Below, in pieces: positions 1 to 24,962 of a stretch of DNA of 64,000 nt. The stretch spans positions 8,308,001 through 8,372,000 of the forward strand of contig NZ_JAUSWV010000002.1 of the NCBI RefSeq assembly GCF_030815485.1, read 5' to 3'. A program made the position numbers and the translations under genes. The stretch's first letter is position 1; each line of letters begins with the position of its first letter. The notes under the pieces were generated by a model. The model was not told where the DNA came from. It did no database searches and saw nothing but the letters and a program-made list of their open reading frames with translations. The DNA is from Streptomyces rishiriensis. Lineage in GTDB: Bacteria; Actinomycetota; Actinomycetes; Streptomycetales; Streptomycetaceae.

Positions 1-411
1 AACGGCCAGGTGGGCGACGAGATCTGCCGGTGGCCCCTCCGCCTCCATGGCGTCGAGCAGGTCGTCGGTCCATGACTGGATGCGTGGCGTCATGGCCTCG
101 ATCCGCCGGACGGCGAACGCCCTGGACACCAGGGCGCGCAGTTCGGTGTGGGGGCGGCCGTCCATGTTCACCGACCGTGCGCTGCCCGGCTCCTGGCCGG
201 ACCGCCGGGCGCGTACACCCATGACGTCCCGGGTGAAGCTCCGGCCGTTCAGCACCGTCCGGACGTCCTCGTGCCGGGTCACCAGCCAGGCCTCCTGCCC
301 GTCTGCCAGGAGCACCCGGGGGAGCGAATCCTGGCTGCGCAGTTCGACCAGTCGCGGATGCAGTTCGCCCGCGGAGTCCGCGGAACTCGGAAAATCAAGA
401 ACACGGTCCAT
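1..411 (-). CDS. Cytochrome P450, N-terminal part (runs off left edge)
   Basis: The reverse strand from an ATG at 411 gives 137 codons without a stop to the window edge. The translation has the actinobacterial P450 N-terminal layout: AWLVTRHEDVRTVL (B helix region), then NMDGRPHTELRALVSRAF (C helix with the DGRPHTELR variant of the usual DPPEHTRLR) and a PPADLVAHLAV start of the D/E helix. The heme-binding cysteine and the I helix lie outside the window. The gene is divergent from the methyltransferase at 1,039 and is probably one of the tailoring oxygenases of the terpenoid cluster. Substrate unknown. That it is a P450 is firm; its role is inferred from position. Confidence 0.88.
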   Translation of the reverse strand, partial: MDRVLDFPSSADSAGELHPRLVELRSQDSLPRVLLADGQEAWLVTRHEDVRTVLNGRSFTRDVMGVRARRSGQEPGSARSVNMDGRPHTELRALVSRAFAVRRIEAMTPRIQSWTDDLLDAMEAEGPPADLVAHLAV

Positions 412-1038
412 TGTCGGGAATCCGATCTGGGTGGTCAGCGCGCAGGGCGTGCTTCGCCGCGTGCCCGGTACCGTGCGGTTCGCGGGAAAGGAAGTGGGTG
501 AAGAAGAGGAGAGCCCTCATGGCTTCGCGAGGGCGGCTCACGCGACCTCGCAATGTGGAATCACCCTGGCAGCCGCTTCCTGCGACGACAATCCCCGATT
601 AGTGGGGGAGGGCCCACCGGCGCGGGGGCCCATGACCTGGGCCCTCGCCTCGTTGGTGGCCCGCTGGAGCCGACGGACCCCGCACTTCTGCGCACGCTGG
701 TCGCCTGCTACGCGGTCACCGGGCACGACCACGGACCAGTCACCGCCGGCGACGAGCCGTAGCGCGCACAGCGCGCTTATGAAGATCACGATGCACGGGT
801 GGAGTAATAGCATGCGGATTCACGCCGTGGCCATCCCGACTTTTCGCAGTTGTCGTCGCTCGTGCCGTCCGACATCGTGGCCACTCGATTGTGGCGTCCT
901 GCCGTACCGGCGACGTGTGGCCATGAGCTGCGTGAGGCCGTAATTGCTTGCGCCAGGCGGGTATTGGCCCTGGCTCACCACTCCCCGCCGAAAGTGATCC
1001 GCGTGTGAGTCGGCTCATCAAGACAGGTGGTAGAGGCC
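412..1038. other. Divergent intergenic region, no supported gene
   Basis: About 630 bases separate the partial P450 (minus) from the methyltransferase (plus). Several open frames cross it, but none has a ribosome site together with credible protein composition. The heptamer GTGGCCA occurs three times in the same orientation (827-833, 877-883, 917-923), 50 and 40 bases apart, and could be regulator half-sites. The plus-strand ribosome site AGGTGG is at 1,025-1,030. Promoters for both genes are expected here, but I see no clear -10/-35 pair. Confidence 0.4.
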
Positions 1039-1854
1039 ATGCCCGACACACGAGTGTCATTCTCCGAGGACGAACTTCCCCGACATCGCCGGGTGGCGGA
1101 GGGGTTCGGCGCGGACCCGGAACGCTACGACCGGACCAGGCCCCGCTACCCGGAAGCTCTGGTCGACCGAATCGTCGGGGCCGGCACCGGGCTCGATGTC
1201 GTCGACGTCGGCTGCGGCACCGGCATCGCCGCCCGGCAGTTTCAGGCGGCCGGCTGCACGGTGCTCGGAGTGGAACCGGACACGCGGATGGCCGAGTTCG
1301 CGCGGCGGCGCGGGCTCGCGGTCGAGGTGTCGGCGTTCGAGGCCTGGGACCCGAACGGCCGGTCCTTCGACGCCGTCGTCTCCGGGCAGACCTGGCACTG
1401 GCTGGACGCGGTCGCCGGCGCCGTGAAGGCCGCGGAGGCGCTGCGGTCCGGTGGAGAGCTGGTGGTCTTCTGGAACGCGGAGATTCCGCCGCCCGAGGTG
1501 CTGCGGTCCTTCGGCGAGATCTACCGGAGGGTGTTGCCCGATTCTCTCGTCGCACGCCAGTGGACGACCAACGCCCTGGACGGCTACGCGATGTTGAGCG
1601 GCAACGCGGCCGACGGAGTGCGCAAGGCCGGTGCTTTCGGCACTCCGACGGAGTGGCGATTCAGCTGGGAGAAGTCCTACACCCGGGACGAGTGGCTGGA
1701 TCAGATGCCCACCCACGGTGACCTCGGCCAGCACCCTTCGACCCAGGTGACGCAGGTACAAGAGGGCATCGGTGCCGCCATCGACGCGATGGGGGGCAGC
1801 TTCACCATGGGCTACACCACGGTCGCGATGAGCGCGGTGCGAACGTCCACTTGA
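1039..1854 (+). CDS. SAM-dependent methyltransferase (class I, type 11-like)
   Basis: A 271-residue class I methyltransferase. The SAM-binding motif I VVDVGCGTGIAARQF is near residue 55, followed by the acidic loop GVEPDTRMAEFARR and a post-motif SGQTWHWLD. The ATG at 1,039 is preferred over GTG 1,027 because AGGTGG lies 8 bases upstream. It is clearly paralogous to the gene at 24,153: both share ERYDRTRPRYP, EPDTRMAEFAR, DEWLDQ and GAAIDAMGGSF. The two copies sit near opposite ends of the visible cluster, which suggests separate O-methylations, for example on sugar and aglycone. The substrate cannot be read from sequence. Upstream of the P450 at 2,075 by about 220 bases in the same direction. 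Confidence 0.85.
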   Translation: MPDTRVSFSEDELPRHRRVAEGFGADPERYDRTRPRYPEALVDRIVGAGTGLDVVDVGCGTGIAARQFQAAGCTVLGVEPDTRMAEFARRRGLAVEVSAFEAWDPNGRSFDAVVSGQTWHWLDAVAGAVKAAEALRSGGELVVFWNAEIPPPEVLRSFGEIYRRVLPDSLVARQWTTNALDGYAMLSGNAADGVRKAGAFGTPTEWRFSWEKSYTRDEWLDQMPTHGDLGQHPSTQVTQVQEGIGAAIDAMGGSFTMGYTTVAMSAVRTST

Positions 1855-2074
1855 GCGCGTGCCCCGCGGAGGAAGAACAACGGCGGCAACGACGGCGAGC
1901 GGGCGGAGACCGTCAGGAGCCGACCGCCGCGGTGGGACGTACCGAGCGACGCGTGGCGTCGGCTGTCGTCCACCTACGGCGGTGCGTTCGACGGCATCCC
2001 CCGAGGACGGTGCCCCTGGTGTCCGTCGCCTCCATGACCGAGACCGGCCACCGCCGACCACCGATCGGAAAGGG

Positions 2075-3289
2075 ATGACCGAGATGACGGCTACCGAGCG
2101 AGGGACCAGGCTGGCCGACCAGTCCGCCGATGCCGGGACGATGCTCGCCTGGTTCCGGCGGATGCGGGAGAGCGAACCCGTCAGCCATGACGGGGAAGCC
2201 GGTGTATGGCACGTCTTCCGTCACAGCGACGTGGAGCGGATCCTTGCCGACCCGGGCACCTTCTCCTCCGACTTCAGTTCGTTCATGCCGGCGCAGGAAG
2301 ACGTCGACCGCTTCATCAAGGGCAACCTTCTGCGGAAGGACCCGCCCCAGCACCGCAAGCTGCGCACCTTGGTGAGCAAGGCCTTCACCCCGGGTGTGGT
2401 CGCCCGGCTCGCGCCCCGCATCGAGGCGATCACCGACGAACTGCTGGACGCGAAGGCCGGCGCGGAAGAGATCGAACTGGTCTCGGATCTGGCGTCCCCC
2501 CTTCCGGTGACCGTGATCGCCGAACTCCTGGGCATCCCGGCCGAGGACCGCCCGATGTTCGGGCGGTGGGCCGACTCCCTGGTCGCACCGGAGAGCCAGA
2601 CGAGTTTCATACCGAACGAGGAACGCACGAAGTCCATGGCGATCGTCATGCGTGAGATGAACGCCTACTGCCTGGAGCACATTCGCGGTCGGCGGGCCAG
2701 ACCGAGGGAGGACCTGGTCAGCGAGCTCGTGGCGGCGGAGGTGGACGGTCAGCGGCTGGACGACGACGAGATCATCGGGTTCGTGGGGCTCCTGCTGCTC
2801 GCCGGACACATCACGACCACGGCGCTGCTGACCAATGTCGTCCTGTGTCTGGACGAGTATCCCGAGGTCGCCGCGGCACTGCGCGCGGACACTGCCGGGC
2901 TGCCCGGCGCCATGGAAGAGGTACTGCGTTTCCGTACACCGTTGGCTCCGAGCATGCGCAGGACGACGAGAGACGTCCGGGTCGGTGAACTCACGGTACC
3001 GGCGGGCCAGATCGTTCTCGCGTGGCTGGCCTCGGCCAACCGGGACGAGAGGCGCTTCCCCGCGCCGGACAGCTTCGACATCCGTCGCGCACCCAATCCC
3101 CACCTGAGCCTCGGGCACGGGATCCACTTCTGCCTGGGAGCACCACTCGCCCGTCTGGAGGTAAGGATCGCCCTGGAGAAGATGCTCGGCCGCTGGAGCG
3201 AGATGTCGGTGGGAGAGGGCGTCGAGTACCACGACGCGCGAGGAATCGTCGGGGCCAAACGGCTCCCGCTTCAGCTGCAATGGACCTGA
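2075..3289 (+). CDS. Cytochrome P450 (CYP107/105-like)
   Basis: A complete bacterial class I P450 of 404 residues. The C-helix motif is KDPPQHRKLRTLVSKAF; the I helix reads LLAGHITTTALL, with His where the usual acid (AGxE/DT) would be; the K-helix ExxR is in EEVLRFR; and the heme loop LGHGIHFCLGAP places the iron ligand at Cys353. The start is ATG 2,075; ATG 2,084 is equally possible and better spaced from GGAAAGGG at 2,067-2,074. It needs ferredoxin and reductase partners not seen here. Predicted to hydroxylate or oxidise the terpenoid aglycone, an inference from cluster context. The missing I-helix acid is worth noting because it often signals altered proton delivery. Confidence 0.92.
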   Translation: MTEMTATERGTRLADQSADAGTMLAWFRRMRESEPVSHDGEAGVWHVFRHSDVERILADPGTFSSDFSSFMPAQEDVDRFIKGNLLRKDPPQHRKLRTLVSKAFTPGVVARLAPRIEAITDELLDAKAGAEEIELVSDLASPLPVTVIAELLGIPAEDRPMFGRWADSLVAPESQTSFIPNEERTKSMAIVMREMNAYCLEHIRGRRARPREDLVSELVAAEVDGQRLDDDEIIGFVGLLLLAGHITTTALLTNVVLCLDEYPEVAAALRADTAGLPGAMEEVLRFRTPLAPSMRRTTRDVRVGELTVPAGQIVLAWLASANRDERRFPAPDSFDIRRAPNPHLSLGHGIHFCLGAPLARLEVRIALEKMLGRWSEMSVGEGVEYHDARGIVGAKRLPLQLQWT

Positions 3290-3615: not shown

Positions 3616-3891
3616 ATGGTCACGGAGAATGCAGACTCAGCATACGTTCTCGCTCGTCTCGACTCGCTCCTCAGAGAAGTCTGGGATCAACTGCCCGCCG
3701 ACGTTCCGGTTCAGAGCGACGCATCGTTCCTCAGTCTGGGCGTCGACTCCCTCACGCTTGTTCTGCTGCTCGACAAGGTGGGCTCGGAGTTCCACATCGA
3801 CTGGGAGACCGAGACGTCTCCGGGCGCCGCCAGCTCGCTGCGCTCGCTTTCGGACCTCGTGGTGCGAAGGAATTCTGACAACGCCGCTTGA
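3616..3891 (+). CDS. Acyl carrier protein (CloN1-like)
   Basis: A 91-residue acidic carrier protein. The phosphopantetheine attachment site is SLGVDSLTL with Ser45, on a four-helix carrier fold of typical length. ATG 3,616 is chosen; the in-frame GTG at 3,610 is an alternative because GAGG at 3,602-3,605 could serve either. It is the first gene of a tight operon with a KAS III-like acyltransferase, a prolyl dehydrogenase and an adenylation/carrier protein. In clorobiocin and coumermycin pathways an extra carrier protein (CloN1) receives the pyrrolyl group from the first carrier before transfer to the sugar. That role is inferred here from gene order and partners. Confidence 0.88.
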   Translation: MVTENADSAYVLARLDSLLREVWDQLPADVPVQSDASFLSLGVDSLTLVLLLDKVGSEFHIDWETETSPGAASSLRSLSDLVVRRNSDNAA

Positions 3892-3905
3892 ACAGGGGGG
3901 AACCA

Positions 3906-4973
3906 GTGCGTACCCGGGGTACATACCTCGCCGGAGTCGGTGTGTTCCTGCCTGCGGCGCGGAACATCGAATCGGCAGTGGAGCAGGGGCTCGTACCGGC
4001 CGCCACGGCGGCGGAGTACGACCTGTCGGGGGTCGCGGTCGCGGGGCGGATCTCGGCGCCGGAGATGGCCCTGGCCGCCGCGCAGGAGGCACTCAAGGGC
4101 AGCGGGGTGAGCGCCGAGGACATCGGGCTGCTCCTGTACGCGGGCGTCTGGCATCAGGGCCCCGACGGCTGGGGTCCCCAGGCGTACCTGCAACGGCACC
4201 TGCTCGGCGACGACCTGCTCGCGGTCGAGGTCAGGAACGGCTGCAACGGAACGTTCAGTGCGCTGGAACTGGCAGCCGGGTACCTCAAGGCCTTCCCGGA
4301 GATCCCGGCAGCGCTGGTCACCGCGAGCGACAACTTCGGCACGCCACTGATCGACAGGTGGAACCCCGGCGAAGGGGTCGCCTACCTGGGCGACGGCGCC
4401 AGCGCCGTGGTGGTGAGCACCGCGCCGGGTTTCGCGGAGCTGAGCTCCCTGTGCTCGGCCACGTTCTCGGAGATGGAGGAGGCCCATCGAGGCGGGGAGC
4501 CGTTGTTCCCGCCCAACGCCACCACCGCCACCGCGCTGGACTACGGAGCCAGAAGTGCCGCCTTCCAGCGGAAGGCCGAAGAGGACGGATCGTGGGTGCG
4601 GCTGCTGCTGGGTCATCAGAGGCACAACGTCGAATGCACCGAGCGGGCACTGGAGGAGGCCGGTGTGACGGCCGGTGACATCAGGCACGTCCTGATCCAC
4701 GGCATGCCGCGCCGGGCGGCCTCCTCCTATCTCAAGATCCTCGGTTTCTCCCTGGAACGCTCGACGTGGGACTTCAGCAGGACGGTCGGGCACCTCGGCG
4801 CGAGCGATCACCTGGCCGCGCTTCACCACCTGCTGGCGACGAACCGGCTCGAAGCCGGGGACCACGTGCTGCTGTGCGGCTTCTCCCCGGGAGTGACCTA
4901 CAAGGCGGCAGTCGTCCGCATCCTCGGCACCGACCCGACACGGAACCGTGAGGCGCAGGCCAGTGGACTTTGA
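3906..4973 (+). CDS. KAS III-like acyltransferase (CloN2-like carrier-to-carrier transferase)
   Basis: A 355-residue thiolase-fold protein of the beta-ketoacyl-ACP synthase III family. The nucleophile is Cys113 in RNGCNGTFSALE and the catalytic His is His265 in LIHGMPRR. Where true KAS III enzymes have Asn (GNTSAAS), this protein reads GHLGASD, so the Asn is lost and Asp301 is available for a Cys-His-Asp triad as in CerJ-type acyltransferases. That favours acyl shuttling over decarboxylative condensation. GTG 3,906 follows AGGGGGG at 3,894-3,900. By analogy with CloN2 it should move a pyrrolyl thioester between the two carrier proteins encoded in this operon. Function inferred; family assignment firm. 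Confidence 0.85.
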   Translation: MRTRGTYLAGVGVFLPAARNIESAVEQGLVPAATAAEYDLSGVAVAGRISAPEMALAAAQEALKGSGVSAEDIGLLLYAGVWHQGPDGWGPQAYLQRHLLGDDLLAVEVRNGCNGTFSALELAAGYLKAFPEIPAALVTASDNFGTPLIDRWNPGEGVAYLGDGASAVVVSTAPGFAELSSLCSATFSEMEEAHRGGEPLFPPNATTATALDYGARSAAFQRKAEEDGSWVRLLLGHQRHNVECTERALEEAGVTAGDIRHVLIHGMPRRAASSYLKILGFSLERSTWDFSRTVGHLGASDHLAALHHLLATNRLEAGDHVLLCGFSPGVTYKAAVVRILGTDPTRNREAQASGL

Positions 4974-6096
4974 CCTCACTGCGGAACAACGACGACGGGT
5001 CCGGCACATCCGCGACGCCGCCGGCCGTCTGCCCCGCCCGGAGCCGGGGGAGCCCGCCGGAAGGGACATCTGGCAGGCCGCGGGGGAGTGCGGGATCACG
5101 GGCCTGTGCCTGCCCGAGGAGCACGGCGGCGGCGGGTGCGGCGCGCTCGACACGGCTCTCGGCCTCGAGGCGTTCTGCGCGGGCGGCGCCGACACAGGGT
5201 TCGCCTTCGCCATCGCCGCACACCTGCTGGCCTGCGGCACCGCCCTGGCGGAGCACGCCCATGAGCCCGTGCGGGCCGACCTGCTGCACGGCCTGAGCTC
5301 CGGCAGGACGATCGCCGCCAACGCGATGACCGAGGACGAGGCCGGGTCGGACGTGGGCCGGCTCGCGACGACCGCGCTGCCCGACGGCGACTCCTACGTG
5401 ATCAACGGGGTGAAGTCGTTCGTCAGCAACGGCCCCTTGGCGGACGTTCTCGTGACCTACGCCGTCACCGCGCCCGCTGCCGGATTTCTGGGACTGTCGG
5501 CCTTCGCCGTTCCCGCCGGCTCGCCCGGCCTCCGCATCGGCCCGCCCCTCGCCAAGGCGGGGCTGGACGGGTGCGCCGCCGCACGGGTGGAGTTCACCGA
5601 ATGCAGGGTTCCCCGCGGATACCTGATGGGTGCGGAAGGTCAGGGCAGCGCCGTCTTCCAGGCTTCCATGACCTGGGAACGGGCCTGCCTGCCCGCGATC
5701 TATCTGGGCACGATGGAGGCCCAGCTGCACCGCTGCGTGACGCACGCCCGGGAACGACGCCAGTTCGGCAGACGCATCGGAGACTTCCAGGCGGTCTCCC
5801 ACCGTCTGGCCACGATGAAACAGCGCCTGGAGAGCAGCCGCCTGCTGTTGTACCGGGCGTGCTGGCAGCTCGACCAGGGCAGCGCGGACGCCGGTGCGGC
5901 GGCGGCCCTCGCCAAGGTCGCCGTCGCGGAGAGCGCGGTCGCCAACGGCGTCGACGCGCTCCAGGTGTTCGGCGCGAAGGGATATCTGGCCGGGGAAGGG
6001 GTCGGCGACCGGCTGAGGGACGTCGTGCCGATGCACATCTTCTCGGGAACGACGGACATCCAGCGGGAGATCATCGCCAAGGGGATGGGCCTGTGA
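4963..6096 (+). CDS. Acyl-CoA dehydrogenase family, prolyl-carrier-protein oxidase (CloN3-like)
   Basis: A 377-residue FAD-dependent acyl-CoA dehydrogenase family protein. The N-terminal LTAEQRRR segment, the mid-region AMTEDEAGSDVG (flavin contact) and the C-terminal helical domain (RERRQFGRRIGDFQAV and LQVFGAKGYLAGEGVGDRLRD) are all present. The GTG at 4,963 makes the protein begin VDFDLTAEQ, the usual family N-terminus, and overlaps the previous gene by 11 bases; a GTG at 4,948 is the alternative. Next to a proline-type adenylation domain and carrier, it should oxidise L-prolyl-S-carrier to the pyrrole-2-carboxyl thioester, as PltE, RedW and CloN3 do. The assignment rests on context plus family. 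Confidence 0.88.
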   Translation: MDFDLTAEQRRRVRHIRDAAGRLPRPEPGEPAGRDIWQAAGECGITGLCLPEEHGGGGCGALDTALGLEAFCAGGADTGFAFAIAAHLLACGTALAEHAHEPVRADLLHGLSSGRTIAANAMTEDEAGSDVGRLATTALPDGDSYVINGVKSFVSNGPLADVLVTYAVTAPAAGFLGLSAFAVPAGSPGLRIGPPLAKAGLDGCAAARVEFTECRVPRGYLMGAEGQGSAVFQASMTWERACLPAIYLGTMEAQLHRCVTHARERRQFGRRIGDFQAVSHRLATMKQRLESSRLLLYRACWQLDQGSADAGAAAALAKVAVAESAVANGVDALQVFGAKGYLAGEGVGDRLRDVVPMHIFSGTTDIQREIIAKGMGL

Positions 6097-7883
6097 ACAA
6101 GCCCGCCAACCTCCACCAGTTGCTGGCCGAAGCCGCGGCGCGTGCCCCGCAGGCCCTGGCTGTGGCGGGCCCCTGCGGCCCGGTGACCTATGCGGAACTC
6201 GACGCCCGCGCCGACGCCCTGGCCTGCGTCCTGGCCGGCCACGGCGTGGGCCGCGGCGACCGCGTCCTCGTGTGGAGTCCGAAGTCGGCGGACGCGCTCG
6301 CGGCCATGCAGGCGGTCCTGCGGCTCGGTGCCGCCTATGTCCCGGTCGACCCCCTCAGCCCCGTGGAGCGCGTCGCGACCATCGCCCGCGAGTCCGCGGC
6401 GCGAGCGCTGTGCGCCCCGGCCGAACTGCTCTCGCGCGTTCCCGGCGCACTTCGCCCCCTCCTGGCATGCGTCGACACCGCGCCCCAGGAAGGCGCCGCC
6501 GGGGCACCGGGCGGTGCCGGTACGCGCAAGGCGGCGAGTGCCCTCGTCGGCCGGGACGAGCCTGCGTACATCCTCTTCACGTCGGGTTCGACGGGAACGC
6601 CGAAGGGCGTGTCCATCAGCCACGGCAACGCCCTGGCCTTCGTCGAATGGGCCGTCGAGGAACTGTCGGCCGGCCCCGGGGACCGGTTCGCCAACCACGC
6701 CTCGTTCTCCTTCGACCTGTCAGTGCTGGACATCTACGCGGCGTTCGCGGTGGGCGCGTCAGTCTGTCCCGTGCCCAGCGAGTTCGCGTACGCCCCGAAA
6801 CGCCTGGTCGAACTCCTGCACCAAGAGCGCATCACCGTCTGGTACTCCGTTCCTTCCGTGCTCGTCCTCATGCAGCGCGACGGCGGCCTGCTCGATCAGC
6901 CGCCGCCCGAGTCGCTGCGTGCGCTGCTGTTCGCGGGCGAGCCGTTCCCCGTCCGCCATGTCCGGGAACTCGCCGAATGGACCGACGCCCGGCTGCTCAA
7001 CCTCTACGGTCCGACCGAGACGAACGTGTGCACGTACCACGAAGTCCGGCCCGAGGACCTCGACCGCGACGTTCCGGTCCCGATCGGCGCTGCCTGCAGC
7101 GGTGACCGCGTCTGGGCGGGCAGGCCCGACGGCCGGACGGCCGGCCCCGGCGAGGAGGGCGAGCTCATGGTCAGCGGCCCGACCGTCTTCCTCGGGTACT
7201 GGGGGCAGCCGGCGCAGGACGGTCCCTACGCCACCGGAGACCGGGTCAGGGTCCGGCCCGACGGTTCCTTCGACTACCTGGGGCGCGCCGACGGACAGGT
7301 CAAGGTCCGTGGCCACCGCATCGAACTGAGCGAGGTGTCCGCGGCACTGCACTCGCATCCGGAGGTGGCCGAAGCCGCGGTCACCGCCGTGGGGGACGGG
7401 CTGGACCGGTGTCTGGCCGCGTTCGTGACCCGGACCCCGGCCGGCACCCTCGGGAACATCGCGCTCAGGCGCCATCTGGCGCAGCGGCTTCCCCCGCAGA
7501 TGATTCCCGACGACGTTCGCTTCGTCGAGAAGTTGCCCCGAAACGACCGAGGGAAGCTCGACCTCGCGGCCCTGGTCGCCGAACACCATTCAGGAGGGGT
7601 ATCAGTGACAGCTACGCAGGAACGCGAAGAGATCGCAACGAAACTGCTCGCGTTCATCCGGGAGAGTTTCCTCTCCGGCGACCCTCAGGGAGAACTTGCC
7701 GGCGACACGCCACTGCTCGAACTGGGCGTCCTCAACTCGCTGAACACCGCGACATTGATCGCGCACATACACGAGCAGTTCGAGGTCAAGGTGGCCTGGC
7801 GCGACGTCACTCCGGAAACGTTCAAGAACATAGACAATCTCAGCGCGATGGTGCATGAGAGGCGGCTCTCCGCCCATGCATAA
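6093..7883 (+). CDS. Proline-type adenylation domain fused to peptidyl carrier domain (CloN4 + CloN5 equivalents)
   Basis: A 596-residue adenylate-forming enzyme with a C-terminal carrier. Core motifs in order: A3 ILFTSGSTGTPKG, A4 SFDLSVLD, A5 NLYGPTETN, A7 YATGDR, A8 GRADGQVKVRGHRIE and A10 NDRGKLD. The last 92 residues are a carrier domain with LGVLNSLNTA, phosphopantetheine Ser549. GTG 6,093 overlaps the previous stop (GTGA). It is expected to activate L-proline and load it onto the carrier. In known pathways these are two proteins. Here a strong internal ribosome site (AGGAGGGG, 7,592-7,599) and a GTG at 7,605 sit at the junction, and removing one G from GGGG would restore a GTGA overlap, so the fusion may be recent or a sequencing artefact. 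Confidence 0.9.
   Translation: MNKPANLHQLLAEAAARAPQALAVAGPCGPVTYAELDARADALACVLAGHGVGRGDRVLVWSPKSADALAAMQAVLRLGAAYVPVDPLSPVERVATIARESAARALCAPAELLSRVPGALRPLLACVDTAPQEGAAGAPGGAGTRKAASALVGRDEPAYILFTSGSTGTPKGVSISHGNALAFVEWAVEELSAGPGDRFANHASFSFDLSVLDIYAAFAVGASVCPVPSEFAYAPKRLVELLHQERITVWYSVPSVLVLMQRDGGLLDQPPPESLRALLFAGEPFPVRHVRELAEWTDARLLNLYGPTETNVCTYHEVRPEDLDRDVPVPIGAACSGDRVWAGRPDGRTAGPGEEGELMVSGPTVFLGYWGQPAQDGPYATGDRVRVRPDGSFDYLGRADGQVKVRGHRIELSEVSAALHSHPEVAEAAVTAVGDGLDRCLAAFVTRTPAGTLGNIALRRHLAQRLPPQMIPDDVRFVEKLPRNDRGKLDLAALVAEHHSGGVSVTATQEREEIATKLLAFIRESFLSGDPQGELAGDTPLLELGVLNSLNTATLIAHIHEQFEVKVAWRDVTPETFKNIDNLSAMVHERRLSAHA
7592..7607 (+). promoter_or_regulatory. Internal ribosome binding site and GTG start for a free-standing carrier protein
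   Basis: AGGAGGGG (7,592-7,599) lies 5 bases before GTG 7,605, in frame with the carrier domain of the surrounding gene. Translation from here would give a 92-residue peptidyl carrier protein beginning VTATQEREEI. The same spot contains GTGA (7,605-7,608), the usual stop/start overlap of this operon, in a frame shifted by one base from the adenylation frame. Confidence 0.6.
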
Positions 7884-17131: not shown

Positions 17132-18139
17132 TTGAAAGAGCGAGCCGGGTCGGTGAGATTCGGCGTGATCGGTTGTGCCGACATCGCGTGGCGGCGGACG
17201 TTGCCGGCGATGCGCAGTGAACAGAGCATCGAGATACGGGCCGTGGCGAGCCGTGACCTGACGAGGGCCGAGCGGTTCACCGACAACTTCGGCGGAGTGG
17301 CCGTGAAAGGCTACGCGGAGCTGCTGAAGCGGGACGACGTGGACGCCGTCTACATTCCGCTGCCGGCCGCGCTGCATGCCGAGTGGGTGGAGCGTGCGCT
17401 GCTGGCCGGCAAGCATGTCCTTGCCGAGAAGCCGCTCACCACCCGGTCCCGGGAGACCGGACGCCTCCTTGGCCTGGCCGGCGAACGTGGACGCCTGCTG
17501 CTGGAGAACATGATGTTCCTGCACCATCCGCAGCACCGCCACGTCGACGATCTCGTCTCGAGCGGAGCCATCGGCGAGCTCCGCTCGTTCATGAGCACCT
17601 TCACGATTCCGCCGAGGCCGCCGGGGGACTCCCGTTACCTGCCGGACGTCGGCGGTGGCGCTCTGGAGGACATCGGCGTCTATCCCCTCCGTGCCGCGCT
17701 CCGGTTTCTCGGACCCCGCCTTCGTCTGGTCGGCGCGACGCTCCGCGTCGAACGAGCGCGGGGTGCCGTGGTGGGCGGCAGCGCCCTGTTGTCCGATCCG
17801 GTCGGTGCCACGGCGCAGCTCTCCTTCGGCATGGAGCATTCCTACTGCAGCGGTTACGAGCTGCGGGGCGCCTCGGGCCGGCTCGGTCTCGACCGTGCAT
17901 TCACGCCACCGCCCGATCACCGCCCCGTCCTGCGGATGGAGCGTCGGAACCGCGGTGAGGAGATCACCCTTCCGGCGGGAGACCAGTTCGCGAACATCGT
18001 CGCCTCCTTCGCCGCCGCCCTCCTGTCCGACGACGGCGTGATCGCACGGGACCTGGCCGCCCAGAACCTCGGTTCGCTCCGGCAGGCCGAACTCGTCGAC
18101 GACATCCGCGACAGGGCCGAGTACGCGTACACGTCCTGA
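17132..18139 (+). CDS. Gfo/Idh/MocA oxidoreductase, probable NDP-sugar 3-ketoreductase
   Basis: A 335-residue protein with an N-terminal Rossmann fold (GVIGCADIAWRRTLPAM) and the family signature AEKPLTT, followed by the C-terminal alpha/beta substrate domain (GGALEDIGVYPLRAAL). TTG 17,132 has GGGAGGA 6 bases upstream. In deoxysugar pathways this family reduces the C3 keto group left by a 2,3-dehydratase on the way to 2,6-dideoxy and 2,3,6-trideoxy sugars (OleW/UrdT-type). A 3-ketoreductase, 4-ketoreductase, 3,5-epimerase and glycosyltransferase all occur within 6 kb, which supports that role. The matching 2,3-dehydratase is not in the window. Confidence 0.87.
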   Translation: MKERAGSVRFGVIGCADIAWRRTLPAMRSEQSIEIRAVASRDLTRAERFTDNFGGVAVKGYAELLKRDDVDAVYIPLPAALHAEWVERALLAGKHVLAEKPLTTRSRETGRLLGLAGERGRLLLENMMFLHHPQHRHVDDLVSSGAIGELRSFMSTFTIPPRPPGDSRYLPDVGGGALEDIGVYPLRAALRFLGPRLRLVGATLRVERARGAVVGGSALLSDPVGATAQLSFGMEHSYCSGYELRGASGRLGLDRAFTPPPDHRPVLRMERRNRGEEITLPAGDQFANIVASFAAALLSDDGVIARDLAAQNLGSLRQAELVDDIRDRAEYAYTS

Positions 18140-18293: not shown

Positions 18294-19340
18294 CTACGGT
18301 GCCGCGACGCCCATGGCCCACGTCAGCATGATGGAGCTGGTGACCGGCGCCGTCGTCGCCAGCGCCATGTCGTGACCCGTCTCCGGGACCATGGCGACCT
18401 TGAGCTTCGCCTCGGGCAGGTAGTACTGCGACTCGTGGGCCAGCACGCTGTCCGTGTCGTCGCAGTCGTAGGCGGTCACCCCCTGGCACTCCAACCAGTC
18501 CTGCGCCCCACCGACGACGAGCACCGGCACCTGGATCCCGTACGGCGGCTGCGCCGGCTGCGTCGTCGCGATCGGCTGGACGTCCTTGGTCTCCTCGTCC
18601 ATGGCCACCACTGCCGGATCGGTCGTGGCCGGGTAGTAGAACATGGAACCGCGCGTCCCCGGTTTGGTGGTCATGTACCCCGCGTCGAAGCCGGAGTTCG
18701 CGAACTTCGGATCTTGTACGGCCGGGTACATGTTGGCGGCTACGATCGCGGCGTGGTCCGGGTTGTGCCCGTTCAACGCGCTGGTAAGGATGGCTCCGTC
18801 CACATCGCCGTACCGTGGGATCTCGCGCCAGGCGTAGAACGAGCCGAGCGCGTGTCCCACCCAGATCACCTTCTTGAACGCCTGCCCGTCGAGGGTTCCG
18901 TTGCGCAGAGCGGTGATGGCGTCGTGCAGCGCCACGGTGCCGGCGTCACCGGTGACCTGGCTGCTCAGGGGATGGGAGCTGTTACCCGATCCGATCGGGT
19001 CGACGTTGAAGGTGGCGTACCCGGCCGCGACGGCGTTGCGCACGTACGAGTAGTAGCCGTTGCCGACGGGGAAATCCCAGTACACGTGGTTGTAGAACCC
19101 GCCGTGTACGAGCAACTGCACGGTGGTGGGGCGGCGGTTGCGGGGTTGGCAGAGCTCACCCCACAGGGTCTCCGTCGCCTGGCCGGAGTCGGAGAGGCGG
19201 ACCGGCAGCGAGTACGGCTTGCAACTCACTCCCTGGCCTGCTTCGTCCGCGGTGGCGGACGGGGAAGCGGCCACCAGCCCGGCGACCGTCATGAGCGCCG
19301 CGAGAAGTAAGTATTTCCATGATGAATGTCCAGCTGACAC
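18294..19340 (-). CDS. Secreted alpha/beta-hydrolase fold protein
   Basis: A 348-residue protein starting at GTG 19,340. The first about 32 residues are a signal peptide (KYLLLAALMTVAGLVAASPSATA). The mature part shows the alpha/beta-hydrolase layout: LLVHGGFYNHVYWDF (oxyanion region), a nucleophile elbow that reads GHALGS, with Ala where the catalytic Ser/Cys is expected in GxSxG, and a late VPETGHD that could hold the His. The altered elbow is unusual: either the next Ser is used or the enzyme is not a classical hydrolase. CloN7, which transfers the pyrrolyl group to the sugar, is also reported as an alpha/beta-fold acyltransferase, but an exported location fits poorly. Convergent with the ketoreductase. 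Confidence 0.8.
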   Translation of the reverse strand: MSAGHSSWKYLLLAALMTVAGLVAASPSATADEAGQGVSCKPYSLPVRLSDSGQATETLWGELCQPRNRRPTTVQLLVHGGFYNHVYWDFPVGNGYYSYVRNAVAAGYATFNVDPIGSGNSSHPLSSQVTGDAGTVALHDAITALRNGTLDGQAFKKVIWVGHALGSFYAWREIPRYGDVDGAILTSALNGHNPDHAAIVAANMYPAVQDPKFANSGFDAGYMTTKPGTRGSMFYYPATTDPAVVAMDEETKDVQPIATTQPAQPPYGIQVPVLVVGGAQDWLECQGVTAYDCDDTDSVLAHESQYYLPEAKLKVAMVPETGHDMALATTAPVTSSIMLTWAMGVAAP

Positions 19341-19506: not shown

Positions 19507-19699
19507 TTCACCTTGTTGTCAATAGCCCGCGGCTCCCCGGGGTCGTACGAGCAGGTTGCCGCCATGACGGGCGGGGCATTCCGCGTACCAGAAATTCCGG
19601 CGAGGCGGTACCCCGATCAGCCAGGCTTGTCCCGGTCGCACCGAAGCGGCACCGTGGGGCCCACCGTCACGCCTGCTGACAAGAATGGTCGGGTATCGG

Positions 19700-20890
19700 A
19701 TGCGCATACTGTTCATTCCGGCTTCCGCGCCGTCGCACTATTTCCCGATGGTGCCGCTGATCTGGGCCTGCCGCACCGCTGGTCATGACGTCTGTGTCGC
19801 CGCGCAGCCCTGGGGTGAATCAGTCGTCGTGAGTTCTGGGGTGTCGATGGTCACCATCGCCAAGGACTTCGACATGACCGAGGAACTGGCGCGGCACCGG
19901 CAGAGGGGACCGGTCGAGAGCGAACCGGGCGCCCCGCCTCCGCTGTATCAGACGCTGGTCAACGCCCAGGTCCGATTCGCCATGGAGGCCGCGAGCGACG
20001 TGGTGTCCCTCGCCCGTGACTGGCGCGCCGACCTGGTCGTCGCGGATCCGCTCGTGCTCGCGGCGCCACTGGCGGCCGCGGCGGCGAACGCGCCGCTGGT
20101 TCACCACCTCTGGGGCCCGGATCTGCTGCGCGGCTCCGGGTACGGCTACCCCGGATGCGGGATGTCGCCGGATGCCTGGCCCGAACCCCTGCGTGAACTC
20201 TATGCGCGCCACGGATGCGCGCCGCGCACCGAGAACGCCGTCGCGGCGGTCGATCCGTGGCTGGGGAGCATGCAGATCGTCGAGATACCGTCGCGGATTC
20301 CCGCCCGGTTCGTCCCCTACAACGGAACCGGCGTCCTGCCGCCCTCGGTTCTCGCTGCTCCGCGGCGGCGACGGGTCCTGGTCACCTGGGGCTCGATGCT
20401 GGTGATCCGTGACGGCATCGAGGCGTTCCCGGTCGCTGACGTCGTCAAGGCGCTCCACGAGCACGACGTCGAGGTCGTTCTCGCGGTCACGGGCGCCGAT
20501 CGCAGGTGGGTTCCGAGCCTGCCCCCGGGGGTCACCGTGGTGGAGAACGTCCCCCTCAACGCGATCATGCCGTCGTGCGACGCGGTCGTACACCACGGCG
20601 GAGCCGGCACAATCATGACGGCCGCGTACTACGGAGTCCCGCAGCTCGGCGTGCCGGCCACCCGTGACGTGCAGACCTGCTGCGCCCGGCTGGCCGCCAC
20701 CGGGGCCGGAATCGCCGTCAACAGGGAGGACGCGACGGTGGACGCACTGGCGAGCGCCGTCGCGACCCTCCTGACCGGCGACCGGATCGGAGGTGCCGCT
20801 GTGGCGCTGCGCGACGAGGTTCTCGCCCAGCCGAGCCCCGCCGAGGTGGCCGCACGCCTGACCGCACTCACCGCCGGCGCCCTCGGATAG
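19700..20890 (+). CDS. Glycosyltransferase, GT1 family (activator-independent antibiotic type)
   Basis: A 396-residue GT-B glycosyltransferase. The N-terminal acceptor domain begins RILFIPASAPSHYFPMVPLIWACRTAGHDV. The C-terminal NDP-sugar domain has VTWGSM, the VVENVPLNAIMPSCDAVVHH stretch and the signature HHGGAGTIMTAAYYGVPQL. ATG 19,700 gives the standard family N-terminus; ATG 19,685 is an alternative, and neither has a strong ribosome site. It should attach the deoxysugar made by the neighbouring ketoreductases and epimerase to the terpenoid aglycone. It is the only glycosyltransferase in the window, consistent with a single sugar. It is convergent with the 4-ketoreductase gene, 53 bases away. 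Confidence 0.92.
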   Translation: MRILFIPASAPSHYFPMVPLIWACRTAGHDVCVAAQPWGESVVVSSGVSMVTIAKDFDMTEELARHRQRGPVESEPGAPPPLYQTLVNAQVRFAMEAASDVVSLARDWRADLVVADPLVLAAPLAAAAANAPLVHHLWGPDLLRGSGYGYPGCGMSPDAWPEPLRELYARHGCAPRTENAVAAVDPWLGSMQIVEIPSRIPARFVPYNGTGVLPPSVLAAPRRRRVLVTWGSMLVIRDGIEAFPVADVVKALHEHDVEVVLAVTGADRRWVPSLPPGVTVVENVPLNAIMPSCDAVVHHGGAGTIMTAAYYGVPQLGVPATRDVQTCCARLAATGAGIAVNREDATVDALASAVATLLTGDRIGGAAVALRDEVLAQPSPAEVAARLTALTAGALG

Positions 20891-20943: not shown

Positions 20944-21879
20944 TCAGGACGAGAGCGCGTCCGCCACACCGGCCAGGCCGTCGTGCAGCCGGACGAGAGG
21001 TTGCCAGCCCGCGGCCGCTGCGAAGGACGACGGATCGACGTGCACGTTCCCGAAGTCGGTCGCGTCCGCCCAGTCCGGTGGCGGCACGGTGACCACGGGC
21101 ACGGCCGGGCGTCCGGTCCGGGCCGCGACCAGCTCGGCGAGAGTGCGGAACACCTCGCCGAGCCGCGCGGGCCGGCCGGTTCCCACCGGCCAGCGGCCGC
21201 CGCTGAGTGCCTCGGGCGCACGCGTCGCGGCGACGAAGGCGCGTGCGGCGTCCGTGACGTGCACCAGGTCCCGCTCCACCGTGCCGTCGTGCCACATGGT
21301 GATCGGCTCGTCCGCGAAGGCTCTGCGGGCCATCGCGGCGACCACGCCGCGGCCCGTCGCGCCGGTGATGGGGGTTCTGCCGTAGACCGTGGCCGGACGG
21401 AGCACGATCCCGCGCACCGCACCGTTCCGGGTCGCCTCTCCGAGCAACTGCTCGGCCGCGATCTTCTCCCGCACGTAGTCGTTGAGCGGTAGTCCGGCAG
21501 GGGCCGACGCCTGAACGGTGCTGGCGAACACGACGATCGGCGGTCGTCCGCGCACTGAGCGGACGAGCGTGTCGAGCAGGCCTGTACTCAGACGCGCGGA
21601 ATCGCTGCCAGGGTCGCGCCAGGAGCGTTCGTCGGGGAGCTGAGCCGCGAGGTGGATGATGGTGTCCGCGCCGTCGACGGCGTCACGCACCGCACGCGGA
21701 TCGGTCAGGTCCGCGAGGTGAACCTCGGCTGAGGAGGCCGGAAGCGGAAGCCTTCGCTCATGAGAGACGAGCCGAAGGCGTACCGGGAGGTCGATCAGCT
21801 CGGCGGTGACCGCGGCGCCGAGAAACCCGGATGCGCCGAGTACCGTTACGAGCGGCCGGTTCTTGGCCGATGACAACAC
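20944..21879 (-). CDS. NAD-dependent epimerase/dehydratase family, probable dTDP-sugar 4-ketoreductase
   Basis: A 311-residue extended SDR. The nucleotide-binding motif is TVLGASGFLGAAV and the catalytic pair is in NDYVREK, followed by RPATVYGR, typical of NDP-sugar reductases and epimerases. GTG 21,879 follows GAGAGGGG. In deoxysugar pathways this family (UrdZ3, NovS and CloS types) performs the last reduction at C4 before glycosyl transfer. It is followed on the same strand by nothing and preceded by the 3,5-epimerase gene 112 bases upstream, so the two are probably co-transcribed from a promoter near 22,630. Confidence 0.88.
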   Translation of the reverse strand: MLSSAKNRPLVTVLGASGFLGAAVTAELIDLPVRLRLVSHERRLPLPASSAEVHLADLTDPRAVRDAVDGADTIIHLAAQLPDERSWRDPGSDSARLSTGLLDTLVRSVRGRPPIVVFASTVQASAPAGLPLNDYVREKIAAEQLLGEATRNGAVRGIVLRPATVYGRTPITGATGRGVVAAMARRAFADEPITMWHDGTVERDLVHVTDAARAFVAATRAPEALSGGRWPVGTGRPARLGEVFRTLAELVAARTGRPAVPVVTVPPPDWADATDFGNVHVDPSSFAAAAGWQPLVRLHDGLAGVADALSS

Positions 21880-21991: not shown

Positions 21992-22567
21992 CTAGAGAGG
22001 GCCGGTGCAGTGGGGGAGTATCCCGGAGGCTGCCGCCTCCCGTAGACCCGGTGCGGCCCTGTCCTTGTCCGAGATGATCGGTTCCTCGTCCAGCGTCCAG
22101 GGCAGGGCGAGTTCGGGGTCCAACGGGTTCACGTCGATCTGGGAGCCCGGGACGAACTGTTCCGCGCACAGGTAGTTGATCCGGGTGTCGTCCGCGAGCG
22201 CCTGGTAGGCGTGCCCGAGACCGGGGACGAGGAACACCAGCTCGCCGGATTCCTCGGTCAGGGGTGCGGCGTCGAACGTCCCGAAGGCCGGCGACCCCAC
22301 TCGCAGATCCACCACGACATCGAGCACGGCGCCGCGCGTGCAGCTGATCAGCTTGGCCTCGCCGGAATCGGCCCCGGTGCCATGGACGCCGCGGATCGTC
22401 GTGCGCCTGCTGACCGAGACGTTGCCTTGACGGACTTGGAAGGGAAAGCCGGTCGCGCGGATCAACTCGTCGATCCGGAACGCCTCATAGAAACATCCCC
22501 GTCGGTCACGGTACTTGTCGGGGATGATGCGAAATGCGCCCGCTATCGCCATTTCCTTGATCTCCAA
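21992..22567 (-). CDS. dTDP-4-keto-6-deoxyhexose 3,5-epimerase (RmlC-like)
   Basis: A 191-residue cupin epimerase. Landmarks: IAGAFRIIPDKYRDRRGCFYE at the N-terminus, the catalytic His in TIRGVHG, FLVPGLGHAYQAL, and LDPELALPW near the end. The Tyr at the start of the YKxTxxY-like segment is kept (NYLCAEQF), but the last aromatic is Phe rather than Tyr, which may affect C3 versus C5 specificity. TTG 22,567 with GGAGGG upstream gives the normal family N-terminus; an ATG 15 bases later is possible. A 5-epimerase converts the D- to the L-series, consistent with an L-configured deoxysugar such as L-amicetose. Confidence 0.9.
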   Translation of the reverse strand: MEIKEMAIAGAFRIIPDKYRDRRGCFYEAFRIDELIRATGFPFQVRQGNVSVSRRTTIRGVHGTGADSGEAKLISCTRGAVLDVVVDLRVGSPAFGTFDAAPLTEESGELVFLVPGLGHAYQALADDTRINYLCAEQFVPGSQIDVNPLDPELALPWTLDEEPIISDKDRAAPGLREAAASGILPHCTGPL

Positions 22568-22604
22568 CGGTGGAGCCCTCCTGTCGGCGACGCGTGCACA
22601 CGTC

Positions 22605-22866: not shown

Positions 22867-24096
22867 ATGGCTGAAATCCAGGAAACGACCTGGCCCTACC
22901 TCGCTGGAAAAGGGAATTCCGAGAGCGGCGTCGCCCCCGGTTATACGGTTCCGGCGCAGGTTAACGAGATGTGGCGAGAAACGCCTGTACGCAGAATTGC
23001 GACCAGGGACGGCCGCGACGCCTGGCTGGTGACCGGAATGGCGCAGGTGCGCGCCGTCCTCGCCGATCCGCGGTTCGGTCGCGTCGAGGCACGGCGACTC
23101 GGCGCCGTGGTGAGCCCCGCCGTCATCTTCACCAAACCCGGCATCCTCGACATGGACCCGCCGGAGCACACCCGGCTGCGTCGCTTGCTCGCAGGGGCGT
23201 TCAGCGCCCGCCGGATCCGCAGTCTCCGCCCACGGATCCAGCAGATCGCCGACGGACTGATCGAGACGATGAAGGAGGCCGGGCCACCCGCAGACCTGGC
23301 GGAGGGGCTGTCCTATCCGTTGCCGATCGCCGTGATCTGCGAGATTCTCGGCGTCCCCTACGCGGATCGGGAGATCTTCCGCGCCTGGGCCGATCGGGTC
23401 AGCGCCCCCGGGACGCAGCCGGAGGAGGCGATGTCGGCGCTGCGATCACTGTTCGACTACATGGGCGGACTGGTCGAGGACAAGCGCGCCCACCCCGATG
23501 GCAGTCTGCTCCACGGGCTTGTCACCGCCCGCGACGAGCAGGGCCGTCTCGACGACGAGGAGCTGGTCACCCTCGGCTGCGGCCTGCTCCTGGCAGGCTA
23601 CGAGACGACCGCGACCATGCTCGGCAAGGGGCTGCTGGCTCTGCTGGACCATCCGGACCAGCTGGCGGCGGTTCGCGCCGATCCGGGGTCGGTGCCCGCC
23701 GCGGTCTCCGAGGTGCTGCGCTATGTCACTCCTGGCGTCGACCCGCACGCCGGACTGATCCGCGCCACCACGACGGACGTGGAGCTCGGCGGAACCACCA
23801 TTCCCGCCCACAGCGTGGTCATCGCGTGCAACGCGGCCGCCAACTTCGACCCGGCGACGTTCCTGGACCCGGACCGATTCGACATCACCCGCGAGCGTGC
23901 CGCGGAGCACCTGGCGTTCGGGCACGGGATGCACCGCTGTGTGGGTGCCCAGCTCGCCCGGATCGAACTCGAGGTCGCGTTCGGCACCCTGTTCACGGCG
24001 ATCCCTGGATTGCGGCCGGCGGTGCCGTGCGACGAGATCGTTTACATCGAGGGCACGCTCATCAGGGGTTTGCGCTCGCTTCCGGTCCTCTGGTGA
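22867..24096 (+). CDS. Cytochrome P450
   Basis: A 409-residue complete P450. C helix DPPEHTRLRRLLAGAF, I helix LLLAGYETTATML with acid-Thr pair, ExxR in SEVLRYVT, DPDRFDITRE, and heme loop FGHGMHRCVGAQLARIE with Cys358. ATG 22,867 has only weak ribosome-site similarity upstream (CAAGATC), so it may be leaderless. It is divergent from the epimerase and followed 56 bases later by the second methyltransferase, with a large palindrome between them. It is the most canonical P450 of the four and probably an aglycone hydroxylase. Confidence 0.93.
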   Translation: MAEIQETTWPYLAGKGNSESGVAPGYTVPAQVNEMWRETPVRRIATRDGRDAWLVTGMAQVRAVLADPRFGRVEARRLGAVVSPAVIFTKPGILDMDPPEHTRLRRLLAGAFSARRIRSLRPRIQQIADGLIETMKEAGPPADLAEGLSYPLPIAVICEILGVPYADREIFRAWADRVSAPGTQPEEAMSALRSLFDYMGGLVEDKRAHPDGSLLHGLVTARDEQGRLDDEELVTLGCGLLLAGYETTATMLGKGLLALLDHPDQLAAVRADPGSVPAAVSEVLRYVTPGVDPHAGLIRATTTDVELGGTTIPAHSVVIACNAAANFDPATFLDPDRFDITRERAAEHLAFGHGMHRCVGAQLARIELEVAFGTLFTAIPGLRPAVPCDEIVYIEGTLIRGLRSLPVLW

Positions 24097-24113
24097 GTGT
24101 CCGGAACACCTCT

Positions 24114-24152
24114 GGATTGACATAGTGGGCGCGCGCCCACTATGGTCAATCC
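24114..24152. promoter_or_regulatory. Operator-like inverted repeat abutting the methyltransferase start
   Basis: The core CATAGTGGGC-GCGC-GCCCACTATG (24,121-24,144) is flanked by GGATTGA on the left and GTCAATCC on the right, so the imperfect repeat runs from 24,114 to the base before the ATG at 24,153. No ribosome site separates it from the start codon. The same 10-bp arms occur at 19,474-19,497. A bound repressor would block the methyltransferase promoter; as RNA the hairpin would hide its start. Confidence 0.7.
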
Positions 24153-24962
24153 ATGGCGAATTGGAAGCTCGATGGAGAACTCCATCAGCAGCGACGCGTG
24201 GCCGAATCCTATGGGATCGACGCAGAACGCTACGACCGAACTCGACCTCGTTATCCAGACGCTTTGGTGAACCGTATGGCGCGGTCATGCCCGGGTCTCG
24301 AGCTCCTGAATGTGGGCGCGGGTACGGGTATTGAGGCACGCCAATTCCAGGCCGTCGGATGTTCGGTTCTCGGCGTGGAGCCCGACACGCGGATGGCGGA
24401 GTTCGCGCGGGCCAAGGGCACTGAAATCGAAGTCGCACGATTCGAGGAATGGGAACCGGCAGGACGCCGATTCGACGGGATCATCTCGGGCCAAGCCTGG
24501 CACTGGGTGGACCCCGTGGCGGGTGCGGCCAAGGCGGCGTCGGTGCTGCGTCCGGGAGGACGGCTGGCCGCCTTCTGGAACGTCTCCCAACCTCCGGAAG
24601 AGGTGCGCGACGCCTTCAGGGAGGTCTACGTCGAGGTGGTGCCGGACGCGCTGGCCACTCGCGCCTACAGCATGCCGACGCCTCCGCCGAGCGCCTCCCC
24701 GCTCCTCACCAAGACCATCGAGGGCATCCGCCAGGTCGACGGATTCGGTGAGCCCGAGCAATGGCAGTTCGAGTGGCAGTACACCTACAGCAAGGACGAA
24801 TGGCTGGATCAGCTGCCCACGCAGGGGGATCACGGCCAGTTCCCGCCCGAGAAGCTGGACAGGGTGCTGGCGGGGGTCGGCGCCGCCATTGACGCCATGG
24901 GTGGCAGCTTCGACATGAAGTACACCGCCGTCGCGGTGACCGCGACGCTGCCGACGCCCTGA
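24153..24962 (+). CDS. SAM-dependent methyltransferase, paralogue of the gene at 1,039
   Basis: A 269-residue class I methyltransferase. The SAM-binding loop reads LLNVGAGTGIEARQF, with GAG in place of the first paralogue's GCG, followed by GVEPDTRMAEFARAKG and SGQAWHWVD. The C-terminal SKDEWLDQLPTQGDHG and GAAIDAMGGSFDMKYT match the paralogue nearly residue for residue. The ATG directly follows the inverted repeat and lacks a ribosome site, so translation may be leaderless. It is the last gene of the cluster on this side and is followed by a strong terminator. Probably an O-methyltransferase on the sugar or aglycone; which one is unknown. Confidence 0.86.
   Translation: MANWKLDGELHQQRRVAESYGIDAERYDRTRPRYPDALVNRMARSCPGLELLNVGAGTGIEARQFQAVGCSVLGVEPDTRMAEFARAKGTEIEVARFEEWEPAGRRFDGIISGQAWHWVDPVAGAAKAASVLRPGGRLAAFWNVSQPPEEVRDAFREVYVEVVPDALATRAYSMPTPPPSASPLLTKTIEGIRQVDGFGEPEQWQFEWQYTYSKDEWLDQLPTQGDHGQFPPEKLDRVLAGVGAAIDAMGGSFDMKYTAVAVTATLPTP

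Follow-up and report, generated by a model that had tools for sequence, protein, structure and literature searches.

The published gene cluster for phenalinolactone (pla, from Streptomyces sp. Tu6071) is given as 42 kb with 35 genes (PMC6902898, PMC7601586). Its regulator PlaR1 is a SARP (PMC10972967), a squalene-monooxygenase-like epoxidase acts on geranylgeranyl diphosphate (GGPP; PMC5618424), and Tu6071 mutants in oxygenase genes (PlaO2, PlaO3 and PlaO5 are named), in the dehydrogenase genes plaU and plaZ and in plaV, coding for a putative acetyltransferase, yield derivatives (PMC10301674). Streptomyces sp. CB03234 produces tiancilactones, ‘close structural analogues of phenalinolactones’ (PMC10301674), and the phenalinolactone relative CD8 carries an oxygenated C-3 (PMC11509760), as an epoxide-opening cyclisation would give. 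In clorobiocin biosynthesis, CloN4, N5, N3, N2, N1, N6 and N7 load proline, oxidise it, pass the product to a second carrier, methylate it and transfer the acyl group (PMC11218499). Here, we analysed a 64,000-nucleotide stretch of the Streptomyces rishiriensis genome (G000:C2:8308001-8372000, hereafter the window; genome of 9.07 Mb in three contigs) together with its left flank. Gene content and relatives indicate, with a probability that we put at roughly 0.87, that it carries a complete phenalinolactone-type gene cluster, pla itself being likened through published descriptions. No paper on this cluster was met in a literature search that missed most subscription journals; the cluster looks like a new member of the phenalinolactone family, the compound type itself being already described.

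The cluster spans positions -18054 to 24962 of the window (43.0 kb, 35 called genes). The original prediction of a phenalinolactone-like cluster at 1-24962 had its right end correct, but not its left end, which lies 18 kb further to the left: the window opens mid-cluster, and the aglycone genes, four further deoxysugar genes, a sugar O-methyltransferase gene and the SARP gene are found in those 18 kb. Since the predicted region begins inside a gene, 40 kb to its left was taken in. Genes were called with a codon-usage script and domains assigned with Pfam and NCBIfam in 40 proteins of the window and left flank, some of which were scanned from a longer start than the final call. Pfam recovered the whole predicted parts list (a prenyl synthase, a 1-deoxyxylulose-5-phosphate synthase (Dxs), P450s, two methyltransferases, three deoxysugar genes, one glycosyltransferase and a pyrrole module at 3616-9603); of the four P450s, three lie whole in the window and the fourth crosses its left edge (1-411). 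Inspection of the genes left of position 1 for cyclases, as had been proposed, revealed a squalene-hopene-cyclase-like (SHC-like) gene at -4459 on the reverse strand, accompanied by genes for a squalene-epoxidase-like (SE-like) flavoenzyme and UbiA, which supports the phenalinolactone-like assignment, as does a cyclase identity of 67% to CB03234. No polyketide core pointing to another scaffold was seen among the 40 proteins scanned, and no near-identical known cluster among those reached, the closest being 81-88% identical on the cyclase.

Searching 84,980 species genomes for the cyclase yielded 80 retained loci, of which seven show 63-86% identity and the other 73 show 24-34%. Longer stretches were followed only for the seven with at least 63%, which belong to S. 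hyderabadensis, Symbioplanes lichenis, Actinomadura litoris, Streptomyces sp. ISL-100, Streptomyces sp. CB03234, Actinoplanes flavus and a Kutzneria metagenome-assembled genome. Six of 392 same-genus genomes, the host’s own included, hold a cyclase of at least 65%, which adds G255 (88%) and G058 (65%). A plasmid search with the cyclase gave three weak matches, none over 80% of its length. The nine relatives were thus compared over stretches of 37-80 kb; the ISL-100 contig measures 37 kb and the Kutzneria stretch runs to the end of its contig, so that absences may reflect sequence ends.

Three relatives share the pyrrole module: S. hyderabadensis JCM 17657 (cyclase 86%), G255 (88%) and Symbioplanes lichenis (81%). 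In S. hyderabadensis, 34 of the 35 genes recur with order and strand unchanged, at 75-95% identity, alongside an extra GcpE gene between those for prenyl synthase and Dxs; this collinearity implies that the parts do not co-occur by chance. G255 holds 33 of 35 in another order, lacking the short-chain dehydrogenase (SDR) gene and the gene at 13789; its SARP-like gene is only 47% identical, and it adds GcpE and LytB. Symbioplanes has most of the genes, again reordered; the 80 kb read there lack RmlB, Dxs, SDR and an orthologous P450d. The four pyrrole-type clusters form a clade of 100/100 support in the cyclase tree (final form, with L018 and L019 included and L017 and L015 left out), which leaves the order of the other types unresolved. 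That the locus merely joins two unrelated neighbours, a terpenoid cluster and an aminocoumarin-like fragment, is hardly credible: the pyrrole and deoxysugar parts do resemble those of clorobiocin (PMC11218499), but S. hyderabadensis has the combination in collinear form, G255 has it rearranged and Symbioplanes keeps most of it, and no coumarin-ring or gyrase gene occurs among the 40 proteins scanned. The gene set conserved in the relatives refutes two separate clusters. A tiancilactone-type cluster, for which chloroanthranilate genes (Trp halogenase, Trp dioxygenase, aryl-AMP ligase) would be expected, was likewise rejected, as the 40 proteins scanned include no halogenase or Trp dioxygenase.

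Table 1. Features of the cluster by position in the window (L005 position minus 20000; negative values lie left of position 1, and a single value is the one position given)
Feature	Position	Strand	Basis
SARP (BTAD protein)	-18054..-17257	-	domain scan
TetR	-16047	-	domain scan
LuxR	-15168	-	domain scan
RfbH/UrdQ-type dehydratase (C3-deoxygenase)	-13465	+	domain scan
NDP-hexose 2,3-dehydratase	-12164	+	domain scan
RmlB	-10652	-	domain scan
RmlA	-9681	-	domain scan
NanM-like sugar O-methyltransferase	-8676	-	domain scan
ABH1, alpha/beta-hydrolase	-7680..-6802	-	domain scan
TauD dioxygenase	-6677	-	domain scan
SE-like flavoenzyme (squalene-epoxidase-like)	-5781	-	domain scan
SHC-like cyclase	-4459	-	domain scan
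UbiA	-2728	-	domain scan
FAH-family protein	-1710	-	domain scan
P450a (C-terminal part 1..411 in window)	-782..411 (L006:9218-10411)	-	PF00067; heme motif FGYGAHHCLG
MTa, S-adenosylmethionine (SAM) methyltransferase	1093..1854	+	Pfam; paralogue of MTb
P450b	2075..3289	+	Pfam; orthologues also in A. litoris, ISL-100, CB03234 (68-80%)
Acyl carrier protein (ACP), CloN1-like by position and logic	3616..3891	+	PF00550; GVDSL serine present; non-pyrrole relatives with an orthologue: A. litoris, ISL-100, CB03234
KASIII-like protein, candidate carrier-to-carrier acyltransferase (CloN2-like)	3906..4973	+	best PDB chains 9z38 (3-oxoacyl-ACP synthase-3) and ChlB3 7eqi
Candidate prolyl-PCP dehydrogenase (PCP, peptidyl carrier protein), acyl-CoA-dehydrogenase-like	4963..6096	+	NCBIfam PigA/RedW, 399 and 396 bits, below cut-offs of 500 and 650
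L-proline adenylation domain fused to PCP	6093..7883	+	closest PDB entry 6o6e, L-proline--[L-prolyl-carrier protein] ligase, E 5.7e-153
B12-dependent radical SAM protein, candidate pyrrole C5-methyltransferase (CloN6-like)	7876..9603	+	PF02310 and PF04055; CxxxCxxC
Polyprenyl synthase, probably GGPP (DDVMD; DDILG)	9801..10790	+	PF00348; chain length inferred only
Dxs	10867..12648	+	PF13292
SDR, frameshifted near 13332	12802..13680	+	tblastn against S. hyderabadensis gene
BLAC, beta-lactamase/class C esterase-fold protein	14292..15746	-	PF00144
P450c	15777..16865	-	Pfam; at least 70% in same four relatives as BLAC
GFO/IDH/MocA oxidoreductase, candidate NDP-hexose 3-ketoreductase	17210..18139	+	Pfam
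ABH2, StnA-like alpha/beta-hydrolase, nucleophile Ser replaced (GHALG)	18294..19340	-	Pfam; PDB 5hdf/5hdp
EryCIII-like glycosyltransferase	19685..20890	+	PF06722/PF21036; activator-dependent model TIGR04516, 264 bits, below cut-off of 440
Candidate NDP-hexose 4-ketoreductase, epimerase-type	20944..21879	-	PF01370
dTDP-sugar 3,5-epimerase	21992..22567	-	PF00908
P450d	22867..24096	+	PF00067; 84% in G255 and S. hyderabadensis, 61-66% in ISL-100, CB03234, A. flavus
MTb, SAM methyltransferase	24276..24962	+	Pfam

The gene count takes in the frameshifted SDR and one gene (13789-14226) without a Pfam match, to which none of the genes called in the nine relatives corresponds. MTb is the last gene shared with the pyrrole-type relatives, none further right up to 34.5 kb being shared. 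Within -20.5 to 34.5 kb, neither the genes left of the SARP nor those at 25337-33729 have a reciprocal match in these relatives; the latter code for a DUF7019 protein, for a protein kinase that carries a WD40 propeller and for an NB-ARC-WD40 protein in opposing orientation. The two methyltransferase paralogues are 66% identical in DNA (1114-1800 against 24219-24908).

From the gene families, the completeness of the gene set and the orthology we infer the following reactions, their order and the product. Cluster-borne Dxs and prenyl synthase would raise GGPP supply, UbiA would prenylate a small, presumably pyruvate-derived acceptor, the SE-like flavoenzyme would epoxidise the terminal alkene and the SHC-like cyclase would open the epoxide to form a tricyclic scaffold; prenylation, epoxidation and cyclisation reportedly follow in this order, as the title of one paper has it. 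Epoxidase, non-canonical cyclase and UbiA are present as one unit, epoxidase and cyclase in all nine relatives, UbiA, the FAH-family protein and P450a in eight, and TauD in seven. The class II acid motif DxDD is absent from the cyclase (no D.D[DT] by pattern search), and the stretch matching it by eye reads PN[FI]LD[ST]A in 10/10 cyclases of the group. Co-conservation only is what suggests that FAH-family protein, TauD dioxygenase and P450a may build the gamma-butyrolactone; P450b-d would add oxygens. Between the pyrrole type and the six non-pyrrole relatives, prenyl synthase identity is only 33-37%; in four of these six, the gene lies between those for the FAH-family protein and UbiA.

GcpE, identified by Pfam in S. 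hyderabadensis and by blastp in G255, ISL-100 and A. flavus, gave no tblastn match in the 104 kb examined around the cluster. The SDR is readable by tblastn in two frames (12781-13332 and 13334-13543), and its S. hyderabadensis counterpart is intact (264 aa) at the same place. Both features would fit a close variant in which, for want of an intact SDR and with a reduced methylerythritol phosphate (MEP) supplement, a phenalinolactone congener short of one oxidation step accumulates, and derivatives from the Tu6071 oxygenase, plaU, plaZ and plaV mutants show a precedent (PMC10301674). We nevertheless regard this variant as rather doubtful: a frame difference of one position could be a sequencing error, the SDR may be dispensable as no orthologue occurs in the compared stretches of G255 or Symbioplanes, and the genome holds two GcpE copies elsewhere as well as two Dxs genes besides that of the cluster (three in all). 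One GcpE match is directly followed by a Dxs match (G000:C2:7154916-7156870), about 1.1 Mb from the cluster, possibly at another terpenoid locus. The cluster Dxs matches PF13292 in two pieces, with profile positions 193-231 skipped; its called length is 593 aa here and in S. hyderabadensis and 605 aa in G255.

The assignment to a complete phenalinolactone-type cluster is carried by the domain content, the S. hyderabadensis collinearity and the gene sharing with G255, the aglycone genes kept in most relatives, the fully supported cyclase clade, an SE-like enzyme in line with the published GGPP epoxidation, the L-proline-ligase-like adenylation domain, a SARP that fits PlaR1 and a size and gene count near those published. 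Several points weigh against it. Membership is based on gene content and relatives rather than on alignment with pla sequences. The product may differ, since the SDR is frameshifted, be this real or a sequencing error, and the cluster lacks the GcpE that S. hyderabadensis and G255 have. Compared with PlaV, PlaU and PlaZ as described, the locus offers two acyltransferase candidates, neither an unmistakable PlaV counterpart, and for the two dehydrogenases one frameshifted SDR. The agreement with the published 35 genes is partly coincidence, as our count includes this broken SDR and the relative-less gene. Finally, sugar stereochemistry and attachment sites are not readable from sequence, an amicetose or rhodinose configuration at C4 fitting alike.

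The gene content for a 2,3,6-trideoxy-L-sugar is complete, with an O-methyltransferase and a glycosyltransferase in addition. RmlA, RmlB, 2,3-dehydratase, 3-ketoreductase, the RfbH/UrdQ-type enzyme, 3,5-epimerase and 4-ketoreductase would yield a sugar of the amicetose or rhodinose type, which the glycosyltransferase would attach and the NanM-like enzyme O-methylate. A P450-derived glycosyltransferase activator was considered and rejected, because the heme-Cys motif is present in three P450s (pattern search) and in P450b (read from its printed tail).

By gene families, the pyrrole-2-carboxylate module is present together with a candidate C5-methyltransferase. Proline would be loaded on the PCP and oxidised to a pyrrole-2-carboxyl group, the KASIII-like protein would move this to the second carrier, the radical SAM protein would C-methylate the pyrrole and ABH1 or BLAC would transfer it to the molecule. 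ChlB3, among the best structural matches of the KASIII-like protein, moves an acyl group between carriers. Adenylation domain and PCP are fused here and in S. hyderabadensis, and encoded by two genes in G255 and Symbioplanes. The radical SAM protein is 93%, 92% and 88% identical in S. hyderabadensis, G255 and Symbioplanes; five of the six other relatives have no match, and A. litoris has a weak one (34%, 157 residues) on a contig other than that of the cyclase. Four of the 392 same-genus genomes contain it, the fourth being G377 (76%) in another setting: there (G377:C484, L141-L142) it lies near AMP-ligase and nonribosomal-peptide-synthetase-like genes, not those of this cluster, and the 27 genes in the first 35 kb of the contig include no ABH1, BLAC, KASIII or ACP counterpart by blastp. 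In a phylum sample, 69 of 396 genomes (own included) have a radical SAM match at E<=1e-60, the others being 30-37% identical and their genomes 1.3-3.9 Mb in size.

But, which of the two candidates would transfer the acyl group? ACP and ABH1 occur in the same six of nine relatives, three with and three without the pyrrole module, whereas the KASIII-like protein is confined to the three pyrrole-type relatives. This shared distribution across pyrrole and chloroanthranilate-type clusters suggests a swappable acyl unit. ABH1 retains nucleophile Ser and His in 7/7, and ISL-100 and CB03234 lack BLAC, yet still need acyl transfer. We therefore see an even chance that ABH1 is a CloN7-like acyltransferase of the alpha/beta-hydrolase fold that moves the pyrrolyl group off the second carrier, BLAC doing something else, e.g. 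acetylation. CloN7 presumably has this fold, and the likeness is one of described role. The clorobiocin acyltransferase CloN7 works with the carrier CloN1 (PMC11218499); on the other side, the PDB matches of ABH1 are hydrolases, and the 50 kb read of A. flavus hold an AMP ligase and a gene of the Trp dioxygenase family, but no ACP and no ABH1. Pointing the opposite way, BLAC and ACP form a single 577-aa frame in Symbioplanes lichenis (L116:10745-12478), the ACP match starting in frame after residue 484. This fusion suggests that BLAC could be a carrier-protein-dependent acyltransferase, conceivably of the type of LovD, which belongs to the same beta-lactamase/esterase family. BLAC as a LovD-type acyltransferase for pyrrolyl-ACP appears unlikely to us: SxxK is kept, but the Tyr of the usual YxN is Ser in 5/5 orthologues (motif assigned by eye), the two acylating clusters named above do without BLAC, and its 37 PDB matches are mostly esterases, carboxypeptidases and beta-lactamases, none of them LovD. 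Moreover, ACP fusion may be incidental, as in A. litoris the ACP is joined to a different neighbour, which by eye is a flavin-reductase-like domain. BLAC and P450c (at least 70%) both occur in the same four relatives.

ABH2, which is 348 aa long and by eye has a signal-like N-terminus, appears to be an esterase that has lost its nucleophile. Its sole PDB matches are two entries of the streptonigrin methylesterase StnA (residues 15-341 aligned, E 7e-50). The nucleophile of StnA is Ser185, and entry 5HDP is its S185A mutant (PMC5225493); ABH2 has Ala at this position, the same change as in the laboratory mutant. The nucleophile elbow reads GHALG in five of six orthologues and GHGTG in the sixth, a GxSxG Ser occurring in none, and Asp and His of the triad are apparently kept. 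ABH2 and the orthologous glycosyltransferase are both present in five of the nine relatives and both missing from the other four. Structure predictions from five-row alignments were unusable, with a mean predicted local distance difference test score of 33.4 for BLAC and 38.1 for ABH2. A joint proposal, in which ABH2 would be a non-hydrolytic partner that binds or protects the glycosylated product, BLAC a carrier-dependent acyltransferase and the family a natural acyl-swapping system, is speculative and in our view improbable.

Outside the pyrrole type, Pfam identifies a Trp halogenase and a member of the Trp 2,3-dioxygenase family in A. litoris, with 37% and ~30% homologues in ISL-100 and CB03234. 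The A. litoris locus (L120-L122, G394:C12:334001-390000) is an apparent hybrid, combining phenalinolactone-type glycosyltransferase, BLAC, P450c, ABH2 and some sugar genes with the halogenase and dioxygenase-family genes; this content predicts a glycosylated chloroanthraniloyl diterpenoid as its product. For the family as a whole, we infer that the terpenoid-lactone core is fixed, that the device for carrying and transferring acyl groups is shared and that acyl-unit and sugar modules can be exchanged. A. flavus, with a 70% homologue of the A. litoris dioxygenase and an AMP ligase, but without ACP/ABH1, counts against so tidy a modular picture, as does the low identity of the pyrrole-type prenyl synthase to those of the other six relatives.

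The main finding is an expected member of a described family. The pyrrole-type cluster is rare (3/392 same-genus genomes, own included), and the four orthologous clusters form a comparative set for assigning tailoring genes; the dead yet conserved esterase, the beta-lactamase-fold protein with its altered motif and the shared ACP/ABH1 pair pose concrete, testable questions. No paper was found on the orthologous clusters of S. hyderabadensis, G255 and Symbioplanes, which share the pyrrole module and differ by the extra GcpE in the first two and LytB in G255.

By published descriptions, pla resembles the locus in size, gene number, SARP, SE-like epoxidase, oxygenases and perhaps dehydrogenases. 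Tu6071 was not among the 80 loci kept in the cyclase scan, and the frameshifted SDR and missing GcpE may or may not be shared with it. The pla cluster presumably also has deoxysugar and methylpyrrole parts, and we take its Tu6071 record to be DQ230532. The CB03234 stretch (L026; L113-L115), inferred to be the published tia cluster, shares cyclase, epoxidase, UbiA, FAH-family protein, P450a, TauD, P450b, MTa, ACP and ABH1 (57-83%), its aglycone genes being 64-83% identical to those here. The 50 kb read hold no orthologous glycosyltransferase, deoxysugar gene, KASIII, radical SAM, BLAC, P450c or ABH2 and instead contain the halogenase and dioxygenase homologues mentioned above. CloN1-N7 of clorobiocin, compared by description, follow the same logic as the pyrrole module, which here appears attached to a diterpenoid, with the adenylation domain fused to its PCP and with two acyltransferase candidates (PMC11218499).

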